64,000 nucleotides of DNA from Methanofastidiosum sp. (GTDB lineage: Archaea; Methanobacteriota_B; Thermococci; Methanofastidiosales; Methanofastidiosaceae). Made by a program: the position numbers and the translations under genes. Positions 47,304-55,771 of this stretch are shown piece by piece. The notes under the pieces were generated by a model. It did not search any database. It worked only from the letters and a program-made list of their open reading frames with translations, and was not told the DNA's origin. Every line of letters starts with the position of its first letter. Positions within the stretch are counted from its first letter, which is position 1. The stretch is from the NCBI GenBank assembly GCA_013178285.1, contig JABLXD010000001.1:124001-188000 (forward strand), given 5' to 3'.

Positions 47304-49286
47304 ATGGTTAGTATACCTTTTTTAAGAAGAATTAGAAACAAGTTCATAGCTACATACCTAATAGTGTTATTGGTACCGGTAGTGGCAATTGGTTATTACA
47401 GTATTAATTTTACCATTGATTACCTTCAAAGCGATGCATTGAAAGTGGTAGAGCAGCAGGCAGAGATTACAGCAAAAGAGATAGAAAAATCACTTGGAGT
47501 TGCAGAAAGTGACATTGATTTCTTGAGTCAATCGGCATCATTGAGAGCACTCGCTGATGCAAAGAACAGAAGGTCGGTAATTGAATATATTATTTATAGG
47601 GAGCGGCTGATAGAAGAGTTTTATAATTTTGCAAATTCTAAGAAAGCCTATTCAAGTGTGGCCTACATTGATGAAACAGGTAAAGAGGTCGTGAAGGTAG
47701 TCTATAACTGGAATCAGACTTTTATTGCAACAACTTCAGCACTCTACGACGTCTCAGATGAAGAGTATTTCTTAAAGGCGATGACCCTTTCTAGAGGGCA
47801 GCTTTATGTTTCTTCACTTGACCTGACATCGACGATAACAACTGATTCTGGAGATTTGATAGTACATTATGCAAAACCAGTTTTTGACTCAAATGGAATA
47901 AGAAGGGGCGTTGTGCTTATCAGCTTCCCTGCCCAGAGGGTTTTGAGCCCCATACTGGAACTTTCTACTAGGTCAAATCTAAACACCTTCATTTTAAACA
48001 AACAGGGGTATTATATTTCGCGAGTGGGCTCCTCAAGCCTAGCAAATCCATATTATGCTGGTGAAAGCTTTATAGATCAGTATAAGGCAGAAGGGTTTCT
48101 TAAGATTCTTTCAGGAACAAGCGGTACCATTTCAGAAGGGACCGATCAGATAATTGCATACTCTCCAGTATTCCCTTCTTCAACAGACAAGAGTAACTTC
48201 TGGATCGTAGTAGTTACATATTCAACAAGCACTCTATTTAGGCCAATATCAGTTTTTGAGAACAGCTTTATCCTTATAGTAATGTCAACAATACTCATTG
48301 CCGTATTTTTTGGGGTCATTATGGCCGACAGAATAACAAGACCTCTTAGGAAGCTTGTCTACGCATCAAGGAGACTTGCAGAGGGGGATCTAAATCCAAA
48401 GATTGATATCAATAGCGAGGATGAGGTAGGGGAGTTAGCAAAGGCCTTTGGTGACATGTCAAAGGACCTTAAAAAATCATATGAAGACCTTGAAAGGAAG
48501 GTCAAAGAGAGAACGTTAGAGCTCCAGAAAGCAAACAAAAAGCTATCTGAGACCAATATTGAGCTTGTAGAGCTAAACAAAAAGATCTCGGAGGCAAACA
48601 AACTAAAATCACAATTCTTAGCAAATATCACCCATGAACTTAGGACTCCACTTACATCAATTATCGGATTTTCTGAGGTAGTCTTAAACGAGGCAAAATT
48701 AAATGAAGAACAGGCCGATTATCTAGAAACTATTTTGAGAAATGGTGAAATCCTATTAAAACTCATAAATGACATCCTAGAGCTTTCAAGGCTTGATGCC
48801 GGAAAATCAAAGTTATACCTAACAGAGTTTAACTTACAGGATGCCATAAATAAAACTTTAAAAATTGTATCGCCTTTAACAAAGGATAAGAATATCTGGG
48901 TTTCATTAAATGTTCAGGATGTCGACACTATAGTTGCAGATGAAGATAAGATTATAGAGGTCCTACTTAATCTTTTGACAAACGCAATAAAATTCAATGT
49001 TGAAAATGGTAAGATTACAGTAAGGGTATTTAGAATAGATGACCACATAAGAGTTGAGATACAAGACACAGGGATAGGCATCAAACAGGAAGAGTTAGAC
49101 GTGATATTTGATGAGTTCAGACAACTTGATAGCTCTGAAACAAAGGCTTATCGTGGTACTGGTCTTGGACTTTCTATATCAAAGCATTATGTGGAGCTAC
49201 ACGGTGGGCTCATCTGGGCAGAGAGTGAGCCTGGTAAGGGTTCAACTTTTATAGTTGAAATACCGATAGAAGCAGGGGAAGAGTAA
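47304..49286 (+). CDS. Membrane sensor histidine kinase (Cache-HAMP-HisKA-HATPase)
   Basis: 660 residues. Membrane helix 1 (~13-33), an extracellular Cache-like sensor (~34-315, with DVSDEEYFLKAMTLSRGQLYV), helix 2 (~320-343), HAMP (RITRPLRKLVYASRRLAEGD), a coiled coil, HisKA with FLANITHELRTPLTSIIGF (phospho-accepting His444) and the HATPase domain (LLNLLTNAIKFN; DTGIGI; RGTGLGLSIS). It senses an external small ligand, autophosphorylates and transfers to the response regulator directly downstream (stop and start overlap, TAATG). The ligand is unknown. Confidence 0.95.
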   Translation: MVSIPFLRRIRNKFIATYLIVLLVPVVAIGYYSINFTIDYLQSDALKVVEQQAEITAKEIEKSLGVAESDIDFLSQSASLRALADAKNRRSVIEYIIYRERLIEEFYNFANSKKAYSSVAYIDETGKEVVKVVYNWNQTFIATTSALYDVSDEEYFLKAMTLSRGQLYVSSLDLTSTITTDSGDLIVHYAKPVFDSNGIRRGVVLISFPAQRVLSPILELSTRSNLNTFILNKQGYYISRVGSSSLANPYYAGESFIDQYKAEGFLKILSGTSGTISEGTDQIIAYSPVFPSSTDKSNFWIVVVTYSTSTLFRPISVFENSFILIVMSTILIAVFFGVIMADRITRPLRKLVYASRRLAEGDLNPKIDINSEDEVGELAKAFGDMSKDLKKSYEDLERKVKERTLELQKANKKLSETNIELVELNKKISEANKLKSQFLANITHELRTPLTSIIGFSEVVLNEAKLNEEQADYLETILRNGEILLKLINDILELSRLDAGKSKLYLTEFNLQDAINKTLKIVSPLTKDKNIWVSLNVQDVDTIVADEDKIIEVLLNLLTNAIKFNVENGKITVRVFRIDDHIRVEIQDTGIGIKQEELDVIFDEFRQLDSSETKAYRGTGLGLSISKHYVELHGGLIWAESEPGKGSTFIVEIPIEAGEE

Positions 49287-50113
49287 TGACTAGTATATTA
49301 ATTGTCGATGATACAGCCGATAATGTAAAACTTATCCGGGCTATGATAAAATCAGTTGCGACAGAAATTGATGTTGCTGTTGATGGTGAAGAGGCTTTAA
49401 ACAAGATTACAAATAATGATTACGATATTGTACTTCTTGATATAATGTTACCAAAGATTTCTGGTATCGATGTATTAAAAAGGGCGAGAGAAAGAGAGAT
49501 AGACGTTCCCATAATTGTCATGACAGCATATGGCTCAGAAGAGCTTGCAGTTGAAACATTAAGAGAAGGTGGCGATGACTACCTTATCAATAAACCCATA
49601 AGGACTGAAGATCTACTTGAAGCTATTAACAAGGCGCTTGAAAAGAGAAAGTCAAAGAACATTGAAGAGGAGTTCACAAATGAAGATGCTTACTCAATGA
49701 TCTCAGAGTTTGAGAATAATCTAAGGGAGTTCATTTTGGAAGCATTGAAAAGAAAATACGGCCCTTCATGGTGGGATAGAGGTATTCCAAATTTCATTAA
49801 GTCAATCTGCCTTAAGAGACAAAATGATGCAATAGTCAGAAAAAGAGAGGTATATCCCCCTCTTTTTTATACAGACTTTTCACATTACCTCCCAATAATA
49901 CTTTTTAAAAACAATGAAAAGGAGATAGACAACTGGAAGGACGTCTTTGAATACTATTTTGTAAGCATCGGCTGGATAAAAGGGAGATTAATTGAGCTGA
50001 CAGAGATTAGAAACGAGATTGTCCACCCAAAGAAGATAACAAAGAGGCAGTTTAAGAAGATGAAGCTCTACATCGATGAGATCAATGAGTATATGGACAG
50101 ACCTCACGATTAA
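49286..50113 (+). CDS. Response regulator fused to a HEPN-like domain (candidate Swt1-type)
   Basis: 275 residues. The receiver domain (1-~120) has D8, D9, phospho-acceptor D52 (LLDIMLPKISG), T80 (VMTAYGS) and K103 (INKPI). Residues ~140-270 are not a DNA-binding or enzyme output domain: an all-helical region with KYGPSWWDRGIPNFI and R242-N-E-I-V-H247 (R-x4-H) resembles HEPN domains such as the Swt1 type, which are often RNases. The reading is by motif only. Overlaps the kinase by one base, so kinase and regulator are coupled; its 3' end overlaps the convergent MnmC-like gene by 32 bases. It may couple an extracellular signal to RNA cleavage. Confidence 0.7.
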   Translation: MTSILIVDDTADNVKLIRAMIKSVATEIDVAVDGEEALNKITNNDYDIVLLDIMLPKISGIDVLKRAREREIDVPIIVMTAYGSEELAVETLREGGDDYLINKPIRTEDLLEAINKALEKRKSKNIEEEFTNEDAYSMISEFENNLREFILEALKRKYGPSWWDRGIPNFIKSICLKRQNDAIVRKREVYPPLFYTDFSHYLPIILFKNNEKEIDNWKDVFEYYFVSIGWIKGRLIELTEIRNEIVHPKKITKRQFKKMKLYIDEINEYMDRPHD

Positions 50114-53565: not shown

Positions 53566-53634
53566 TTGGATAAATTTAAAAACTCCGGATGCATTTATTG
53601 TTTTGTTATATTTGTTACAACTGTAGGTGTTATA

Positions 53635-54201
53635 ATGGTAGAAAGATTTAGGTCAATTACAAGTGTGGGAAGAGGATTTAGCCGATACATGGGATCAATA
53701 TCCCGCAAAAAAAGAAAGGCCGATAGGATGATAGGCCTTCTTATTGATGGCCCCAATATTTTAAGAAAAGAGTTTGATATTAATCTAGAAGATATTAAAA
53801 AGATCCTAGAAGATATGGGAGACATTAGGATAGGAAAGGTTCTATTGAATCAGTTTGCTCCTCACGGCCTTATTGAGGCAATTGCAAATCAGGGTTTTGA
53901 TGCTATTGTTGTTACAGGAGATATTGATGTTAGGATGGGTGTTGAAGCAATGGAAATTATCTACAATGAAAACATCAACACCGTTGCAATAGCTACAAGG
54001 GATGCAGACTTTGTCCCTATACTTGCAAAGGCCAAAGAGCACGGTAAGGAAACAATAGTCATAGGAGCAGAACCAGGTTTTTCTATAGCCCTTCAAAACA
54101 CTTCAGACTTCGTTATCAAGATGGGAAAGATCCCTCCTGAAGCAGTCGAAGAAGAAGAGGAGCTTATGATTGAAGGAGAAGAACTAGAGGACTCCTATTA
54201 A
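53635..54201 (+). CDS. NYN-domain ribonuclease-like protein (TIGR00288 family)
   Basis: 188 residues. NYN (PIN-like) nuclease fold: IGLLIDGPNILRKEF, FDAIVVTGDIDVRMGVEAMEI and IATRDADFVPILAKAKEHGK give the acidic residues of the metal site; the C-terminal ~20 residues are acidic. Archaeal members are annotated only as TIGR00288 proteins. An upstream TTG (53566) is in frame but the ATG at 53635 has AGGTG six bases upstream. Role in RNA processing is likely but unproven. Confidence 0.8.
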   Translation: MVERFRSITSVGRGFSRYMGSISRKKRKADRMIGLLIDGPNILRKEFDINLEDIKKILEDMGDIRIGKVLLNQFAPHGLIEAIANQGFDAIVVTGDIDVRMGVEAMEIIYNENINTVAIATRDADFVPILAKAKEHGKETIVIGAEPGFSIALQNTSDFVIKMGKIPPEAVEEEEELMIEGEELEDSY

Positions 54202-54251
54202 TTTTTTATTTCTTAGTAAGTTTTATAAGTTTCGAGCGCTTTAATAATAGA

Positions 54252-54740
54252 GTGGATACAAGCGATGAATCTAGCGTTCTAACAAGGACAGAGATGCAGA
54301 TAATAAGGTCTCTGAAGCTTTCTTTTAGAACATATGATGACCTGGAGAAGGAAGGGGTCGGTGACTCTAAGACATTGAACTCGGCGATAAATGCACTTTT
54401 ATCAAAAAGGTTGATGTCTCAGATGATCAAAGAAAATGATCTTGGCTATTCCACAGAATATTTCTTAACGCCAAAAGGAATTGAAATGTCAAAGATTTTG
54501 GCCCTCATGAGAGTCTATAAATTTCCTGACGAGGGTATGACAAGACTTAAACTTAAAATATTAGAGTTCTTAGACGAAGAGAAAAAGCTTGAAAAGATAA
54601 CTGAGTTCCTCGAGATAGAGGAGGCAGAGGTCAAGAGAAACTTAAGAGTGCTTGTCAACACGAACCTTGTCAAAAAGGAAGAGGACATCTATTCTATAAC
54701 TTATCCTGGCGGTAAGTTCTTGAGTTTATTCTTGAAGTAA
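54252..54740 (+). CDS. Winged-helix DNA-binding protein
   Basis: 162 residues from a GTG. A winged-helix region with DDLEKEGVGDSKTLNSAINALLSKRLMSQ and a second similar half (KILEFLDEEKKLEKITEFLE, KRNLRVLVNTNLVKKEEDIY), so perhaps two wHTH units. TTTTATAAG about 30 bases upstream places a start of transcription near the GTG (leaderless). No ligand domain. A transcription factor or structural RNA-binding role is open; placed before prt-thpR-cca. Confidence 0.6.
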   Translation: MDTSDESSVLTRTEMQIIRSLKLSFRTYDDLEKEGVGDSKTLNSAINALLSKRLMSQMIKENDLGYSTEYFLTPKGIEMSKILALMRVYKFPDEGMTRLKLKILEFLDEEKKLEKITEFLEIEEAEVKRNLRVLVNTNLVKKEEDIYSITYPGGKFLSLFLK

Positions 54741-54749
54741 GGCGATTTT

Positions 54750-55217
54750 ATGGATATCCTTTATCTTGAGTGGAGCAAGGTAGACGAAGCTATATGGACC
54801 ATGTGTGACCTCATAAAAAAAGACTATGATTTTGACGTCATTGTCGGTATTTCAAGGGGCGGACTAATACCTGCAGTAAGGATCTCCCATATCTTTGACA
54901 ATAAACGTCTTTTGTTGATGGAAGCTAAGTATTACAAGGACATAGGAGTTAGAGATGAAAAGCCCCAGATTACTTTAACTTTGAAAAAAGAGGATGTCCT
55001 TGGAAAAAAGATCCTCCTTGTGGACGATGTCGCGGATACAGGTGTGACGCTCGTTGCCGTCAAGGAGTATATAGAGGGGCTCTCCCCAAAGGAAGTTAGG
55101 GTTGCAGTAGTTGCCTCAAAGCCAATATCAATTGTGAAGCCAGATTATACAGTTTTTAACACAGACAAATGGATAATATTCCCATGGGAGAAGATGCCTG
55201 TGGAGAAGAGGAAATGA
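54750..55217 (+). CDS. Type I phosphoribosyltransferase (purine/xanthine-like)
   Basis: 155 residues. The PRPP-binding motif is KKILLVDDVADTGVTLVAV, and the N terminus contains VGISRGGLIPAVRIS. Short archaeal PRTases of this type salvage hypoxanthine/guanine or xanthine. Nine bases after the wHTH stop and overlapping the start of thpR by four bases (ATGA), so in one operon. Confidence 0.85.
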   Translation: MDILYLEWSKVDEAIWTMCDLIKKDYDFDVIVGISRGGLIPAVRISHIFDNKRLLLMEAKYYKDIGVRDEKPQITLTLKKEDVLGKKILLVDDVADTGVTLVAVKEYIEGLSPKEVRVAVVASKPISIVKPDYTVFNTDKWIIFPWEKMPVEKRK

Positions 55218-55771
55218 GAAGTTTTATCTCGATGGATATTACCTCAAAAGAGTTATTGGATAAAATAAAGTCTTTTCAAACAAATTTAAAAAATTCGGCG
55301 TGTCCGATGAAGGTAGTCGAGAGGGAAAATCTTCACCTGACATTAAAGTTTTTAGGAGAGATTGGTGAATCATCTTACAAGAGAATAGTTGAGTCGCTTT
55401 CTCCGTCACTGTCTGAGTTTTCTTCATTTGAAGTCAATTTAAAGGGAACTGGATTTTTCCCAAGTATCTCTGATCTAAGGGTCATATGGATAGGTATGGA
55501 CGCCCCAGAGATAGTCTATATCCAGAAAGATATTGACGAAACTCTGAAAACAATGGGATTTAAAGAGGATAGGAAGTTTGTGCCTCACCTCACAGTTTCA
55601 CGAGTTAAAAGCTCTCTAAATAAAAAATCACTTTTGAATGTCCTTGATGAGTATAAGGATTACGAGTTTGGGAGTCAACAAATAACAAGTATAAACTTCA
55701 AAAAAAGCACACTTACACCGCAGGGGCCCATATACGAAACTTTAAAAGAATTTAAGCTAAAGAGTGTATAA
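55214..55771 (+). CDS. thpR: RNA 2',3'-cyclic phosphodiesterase
   Basis: 185 residues of the 2H phosphoesterase superfamily, with two H-x-T motifs (NLHLTLKFLG near 42 and VPHLTVSRVK near 125). It opens RNA 2',3'-cyclic phosphates; in older annotation it is LigT. The longer frame to 55169 overlaps the PRTase; the ATG at 55214 overlaps its TGA stop and has GAAGAGG upstream. Directly followed (one-base overlap) by cca, a frequent archaeal pair linking tRNA-end repair. Confidence 0.9.
   Translation: MRSFISMDITSKELLDKIKSFQTNLKNSACPMKVVERENLHLTLKFLGEIGESSYKRIVESLSPSLSEFSSFEVNLKGTGFFPSISDLRVIWIGMDAPEIVYIQKDIDETLKTMGFKEDRKFVPHLTVSRVKSSLNKKSLLNVLDEYKDYEFGSQQITSINFKKSTLTPQGPIYETLKEFKLKSV

Follow-up and report, generated by a model that had tools for sequence, protein, structure and literature searches.

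A response regulator of Methanofastidiosales with a Swt1-type HEPN output domain, a possible two-component switch for RNA cleavage

How a response regulator brings about its output is still an open question for most archaeal members of the class, because few of them carry DNA-binding domains. The locus described here raises this question for a gene in which a receiver (REC) is joined to a HEPN domain with an intact motif, a combination which offers a concrete and testable answer, namely control at the RNA level in archaea. The window, i.e. the whole stretch of 64,000 nucleotides analysed, is part of a draft genome of 2.1 Mb that belongs to the order Methanofastidiosales; among its named relatives in the genome collection are Candidatus Methanofastidiosum methylothiophilum, Methanofastidiosia and Theionarchaea archaea. 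The reading we prefer, with a probability of about 0.55, is that of a two-component system having RNA cleavage as its output, where phosphorylation of D52 would gate a composite HEPN site. The features of the locus are:

47304 to 49286, plus strand: partner histidine kinase, 660 aa (Pfam: dCache_1 aa 47-304, HAMP 340-390, HisKA 435-500, HATPase_c 546-656)
49286 to 50113, plus strand: REC-HEPN response regulator coding sequence, 275 aa, with ATG start and stop codon
49295 to 49630, plus strand: receiver domain (aa 4-115), PF00072 Response_reg, E 1.2e-26, also matched to solved receivers by Foldseek
49439 to 49441, plus strand: D52, predicted phospho-acceptor, the same residue in 13 of 13 orthologues
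49586 to 49597, plus strand: I101-N-K-P104, each of the four residues invariant in 13 sequences
49604 to 49669, plus strand: predicted helix 107-128, connecting REC to HEPN (AlphaFold2 model, DSSP)
49679 to 50095, plus strand: Swt1-like HEPN domain (aa 132-270), by PF18731 and the PDC-M34B profile; model pLDDT 92, pTM 0.85
49712 to 49726, plus strand: E143-x3-R147, candidate second HEPN motif Ex3[KR] (alignment)
50009 to 50026, plus strand: R242-N-E-I-V-H247, R-x4-H motif, where predicted HEPN helix 3 (228-246) ends (alignment and model)

The receiver shows the complete set of residues expected for a two-component response regulator: acidic pair, phospho-accepting Asp, Thr/Ser and Lys are all present. 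D8, D9, D52 and K103, listed in the initial annotation, stand at the positions it gave; T80 and Y99 of the receiver core are likewise present, and all six are invariant among the 13 orthologues aligned. The target-normalised TM-score versus solved receivers is up to 0.94 (Foldseek). A peculiarity is found at the conserved Lys K103, where the INKP stretch exceeds the usual x-K-P by one residue; the extra residue, which precedes the Lys, was seen in REC-HEPN receivers only, and is missing from 32 other receivers of five genomes.

The kinase was described as overlapping the regulator by one base, and its reading frame does end at 49286, the first base of the regulator's ATG. A kinase of 618-667 aa is found immediately upstream in 12 of the 13 aligned orthologous loci, where a HisKA/HATPase_c kinase thus adjoins the regulator as expected of a cognate pair; at the remaining locus (L021) it is cut by the end of the contig to its C-terminal 284 aa. 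The kinase is the only constant neighbour of the regulator. In one genome lacking a match (G005) the kinase stands near a contig end, so that the regulator was probably lost to assembly, while another (G009, 99% complete) has neither kinase nor regulator nor the neighbouring methyltransferase. The dCache kinase would sense an extracellular ligand and phosphorylate D52.

The C-terminal part of the protein was assigned to the Swt1 type of HEPN domains, and the assignment held in every sequence test, whether by Pfam, by the PADLOC profile or by profile-profile comparison. Residues 142-263 match HEPN_Swt1 with E 2e-7 and 31.7 bits (E 5.7e-8 for the C-terminal part alone); the two scores, 31.7 and 33.6 bits, are both over the curated PF18731 cut-off of 27.5. 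The C-terminal part alone also matches HEPN_RiboL-PSP, under the cut-off of that profile. Among the aligned relatives, HEPN_Swt1 is matched by 15 of 15 and HEPN_RiboL-PSP by 12 of 15; two relatives from Theionarchaea score under the PF18731 cut-off. The PDC-M34B HEPN profile of PADLOC gives E 3.7e-19. When the archaeal family was compared by hhalign with seven sequences from outside it (six plasmid proteins and a fusion protein of G009), a probability of 99.6 and an E of 1e-23 were obtained. Proteins annotated at NCBI as "Swt1 family HEPN", together with hypothetical homologues, were found on alphaproteobacterial plasmids. Membership in the HEPN superfamily is hence supported at the sequence level.

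Both KYGPSWWDRGIPNFI and R242-N-E-I-V-H247, on which the original assignment relied, stand in this domain. The latter has the R-x4-6-H form of the superfamily, with a polar residue following R. R242, N243 and H247 are each present in 15 of 15 HEPN domains of the archaeal family, whose invariant residues also include R178, R185, E237 and K249. A motif not conserved in orthologues had been named in advance as evidence against the assignment; conservation extends instead to distant bacterial relatives. In an alignment of 11 sequences (four archaeal family members, the six plasmid proteins and the G009 fusion), where identity to the query is about 24% outside the family, R242 and H247 are kept in 11 of 11. 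Only nine columns are invariant there (E143, G159, I204, I205, N216, W217, F225, R242 and H247), and the chance of the two named columns both being among them is about 0.003. E143, the first residue of the candidate second motif, is one of the nine; the residue at +4 is R, but N in family f3, and the motif sits in the first long helix of the model, whereas the literature puts Ex3[KR] in helix 2. D181-x3-R185 was also considered for this role and dropped, since sequences from outside the family do not conserve the acidic residue.

These data bear on the possibility that the HEPN domain is not catalytic, but an RNA- or protein-binding output switched by the phosphorylated receiver, acting for example by translation block or by docking to ribosomes or RNPs, as proposed for MtlR-type HEPN domains. 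Some HEPN domains are indeed non-catalytic RNA binders, and inactivity is predicted for the Swt1 HEPN of eukaryotes and for part of the MtlR family (PMC3710099); furthermore, according to a survey of archaeal response regulators, these are thought to act mainly via protein-protein contacts (PMC5847659). Inactive families, however, lose R-x4-H. The present family has kept R, N and H without exception in 15 sequences, and the bacterial relatives share R and H as well. We regard a purely binding output as rather unlikely.

Secondary and tertiary structure were predicted by AlphaFold2. In the full-length model receiver and HEPN are confident (mean pLDDT 86), while the pTM of 0.53 leaves the relative placement of the two domains uncertain. 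In the HEPN-only model a long helix is followed by a second one and then by an insert; the third helix ends in R242-H247, and a fourth comes after it. The predicted topology agrees with the HEPN anatomy in the literature, i.e. two helical hairpins, with helices 2 and 3 separated by an insert and the motif placed where helix 3 ends (PMC3710099). The structural check proposed for the domain thus came out in part: a HEPN-like topology was predicted, but a Foldseek search with the HEPN model found no match at E <= 0.001, to HEPN or any other fold, in PDB or BFVD, so that the HEPN fold is supported by profiles and topology and not by a structural match. The full-length model returned receivers. A PDB sequence search with the HEPN domain, as single sequence and as profile, brought up no genuine relative, the weak hits to S2 and THOC7 being probably due to chance.

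Phosphorylation changes the dimer state of many receivers. In the mechanism we propose, the Cache domain of the membrane kinase would sense an extracellular ligand, leading to phosphorylation of D52 in REC-HEPN and to an altered association of two REC domains. Through the REC-to-HEPN helix two HEPN domains would be brought together, and their paired R242-N243...H247 motifs would form one composite, metal-independent endoribonuclease site. Such dimer formation of HEPN under the control of phosphorylation is the simplest reading. Composite dimer sites are known for the HEPN RNases Csm6 (PMC4748810) and Las1 (PMC10942766). The domains, the phosphorylation core, the R-x4-H motif, the kinase pairing and the receiver phylogeny are sequence-based parts of this proposal; phosphorylation, dimer control, RNase activity and RNA target we infer.

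The archaeal HEPN family was found in 17 of the 21 genomes of Methanofastidiosales (all except G003, G005, G009 and G015), but not in the other 94 genomes searched in the phylum. Fifteen of the 17 proteins are REC-HEPN fusions, all in three families of the order (f1-f3). The other two, from Theionarchaea (f4; L031 5116-6411 and L032 5143-6411), have no receiver, and their HEPN follows an unrelated N-terminus of roughly 280 aa, perhaps with a winged-helix-like stretch; in Theionarchaea, therefore, the domain needs no two-component control, a point against the preferred reading. An eighteenth match in the order is a different protein, a GmrSD-HEPN fusion of G009 (L018 567-3289, minus strand), where GmrSD_N, HEPN_Swt1 and DUF5655 are combined in a type IV restriction-like arrangement. 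An HMM search of 396 archaeal genomes (216 genera) yielded three such HEPNs outside the family, one being the GmrSD fusion of G009 and the others lying in G205 and G357, and no further REC-HEPN fusion. In the G205 and G357 proteins, as read from their translations, the HEPN lies near the N-terminus and no receiver is visible. The G357 protein (L125, an ORF of 402 aa in a single-contig 1.6-Mb genome) has an RNAISH motif in its HEPN and then a long C-terminal extension. The fusion had been called unusual, and the profile searches of archaeal genomes bear this out, the 15 genes found all belonging to three families within a single order.

In a tree of 39 receivers, including 32 others from five genomes of the order, the REC-HEPN receivers group together with support 79/95, corresponding to one change. 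In agreement with the tree, they share 53-64% identity between families, while the remaining receivers encoded by the window's genome reach 40% at most. Since the support is moderate, a single fusion within Methanofastidiosales is favoured by the receiver phylogeny, with which it is consistent, but not proved. A hybrid sensor kinase on contig C81 of G000 (L050) combines a receiver with an AraC-like HTH of Bacteroidetes type, and the contig could be a bacterial contaminant in that draft assembly.

Substitution rates indicate strong purifying selection on the REC-HEPN gene. Within the genus it weighs more heavily on HEPN (dN 0.004-0.047) than on REC (dN 0.028-0.117), while synonymous sites are close to saturation or have reached it. 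Between families REC and HEPN show about the same divergence, so that the extra constraint on HEPN is to be taken as a within-genus observation.

A defence or abortive-infection RNase, derived from a mobile HEPN_Swt1 module and shutting the cell down when the kinase senses infection or envelope damage, was weighed against this background. It would account for the best PADLOC profile being that of a phage-defence candidate, PDC-M34B, for the plasmid location of the bacterial relatives, one of them near Shedu and UvrD-like genes, and for the GmrSD-HEPN_Swt1 fusion in G009. The gene, however, is single-copy and chromosomal, is accompanied by the same kinase in three families and is strongly conserved, above all in its HEPN within the genus. 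As to an anti-phage system PDC-M34, the identified neighbours are metabolic or RNA-modification genes, and no relative was found in phages or viral contigs. Nor is there a minimal nucleotidyltransferase adjacent, as in MNT-HEPN toxin-antitoxin pairs, the neighbours being the kinase and a convergent MnmC2-like methyltransferase. We consider a role in defence improbable. The initial annotation noted that HEPN domains are often toxins or RNases; the chromosomal location of the gene, its presence in three families of a single order and the strong purifying selection acting on it all argue against the toxin part. For the preferred reading, the strong conservation and the lack of a defence or toxin-antitoxin context make a cellular RNA the most likely target.

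Around the pair, the window has genes for a NifB-like radical SAM protein, for a small redox-disulfide protein and for the MnmC2-like methyltransferase, as well as housekeeping genes. The 3' end of the REC-HEPN gene and the convergent methyltransferase gene overlap by 32 nt (50082-50113). The gene downstream of the regulator is a glycosyltransferase in f2. In the four fusion-bearing genomes of f3 it is a Fap7/AK6-like kinase gene, whose start overlaps the regulator's stop by 4 nt in all four:

L027, 6244 to 6786: Fap7/AK6-like kinase gene
L028, 6432 to 6974: Fap7/AK6-like kinase gene
L029, 5587 to 6129: Fap7/AK6-like kinase gene
L030, 6435 to 6977: Fap7/AK6-like kinase gene

This is the only strong Fap7-like copy in the genome (best solved relative 4cvn, E 1.6e-20), and HEPN proteins take part in rRNA processing elsewhere, as Las1 does (PMC10942766). 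One may thus think of a switch for ribosome biogenesis or translation quality, with the HEPN cleaving or binding rRNA or its precursor and tied to Fap7/AK6 in one family. The linkage, however, is seen in f3 only, the strong Fap7-like match of the other families lying elsewhere in the genome, and a single operon change can explain it; little credence can be given to such a role.

A receiver coupled to an RNA-directed output, as proposed here, is already found in the ANTAR-type AmiR/NasR, bacterial response regulators acting on RNA; ANTAR, however, binds RNA to antiterminate and is not a predicted nuclease, unlike REC-HEPN. With the Swt1-like HEPN proteins (PF18731; Abi2/Swt1 clade, Anantharaman et al. 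2013, PMC3710099) REC-HEPN shares the domain, according to Pfam, NCBI annotation and profile-profile comparison, as well as R-x4-H, E143 and the NW signature. In the members known so far the domain is joined to PIN, AAA+, GmrSD or unclassified regions, whereas here it is joined to a phospho-receiver that has a cognate kinase. Csm6/Csx1 (CARF-HEPN) proteins also have an N-terminal regulatory domain, a C-terminal HEPN RNase and a composite site (PMC4748810), but are switched by a ligand site at CARF, where phosphorylation is proposed for REC-HEPN; none of the genes examined around REC-HEPN showed a CRISPR context. The KEN-type HEPN RNases RNase L and Ire1 resemble the proposed principle, an upstream sensor leading to dimerisation and to a composite R-x4-6-H site; this is an analogy and not membership, since sequences are related only at superfamily level and regulatory domains differ. 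Archaeal response regulators with lineage-specific outputs have been surveyed (Galperin et al. 2018, PMC5847659), and REC-HEPN likewise joins REC to a lineage-restricted output in a methanogen. HEPN occurs neither among the domains of Table 3 nor anywhere in the main text of that survey, where REC-PP2C only is reported for the Arc I archaea, understood as this lineage (PMC5847659). The 2013 HEPN survey mentions receiver domains in a different context only (PMC3710099), and no report of a REC-HEPN protein was found in the full text of the open-access literature. REC and HEPN are each known; their combination appears to be undescribed in that literature, the bacterial side having been covered by no more than a single genome-contig scan with family-specific patterns.

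Were the preferred reading true, phosphorylation would join the ways of switching on HEPN nucleases, and a small soluble two-domain system would be at hand for studying HEPN dimer gating. We put forward more tentatively, at somewhat less than even odds, that this is the first two-component system signalling by RNA cleavage, a phosphorelay counterpart of RNase L/Ire1 in which an extracellular cue acts via a His-Asp phosphorelay on a phosphorylation-gated HEPN RNase, fixed as housekeeping regulator in one methanogen order.

Elsewhere in the window (53566-55771), the NYN, wHTH, phosphoribosyltransferase and ThpR-like genes share 98-99.5% identity with those of L020, versus 77-96% for most genes near them; a recent homologous exchange of this stretch is possible. 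Local identity alone would be misleading here, as that of the NYN-to-ThpR stretch exceeds most others to L020, but for the HEPN region a recent exchange is argued against by its divergence at synonymous sites.
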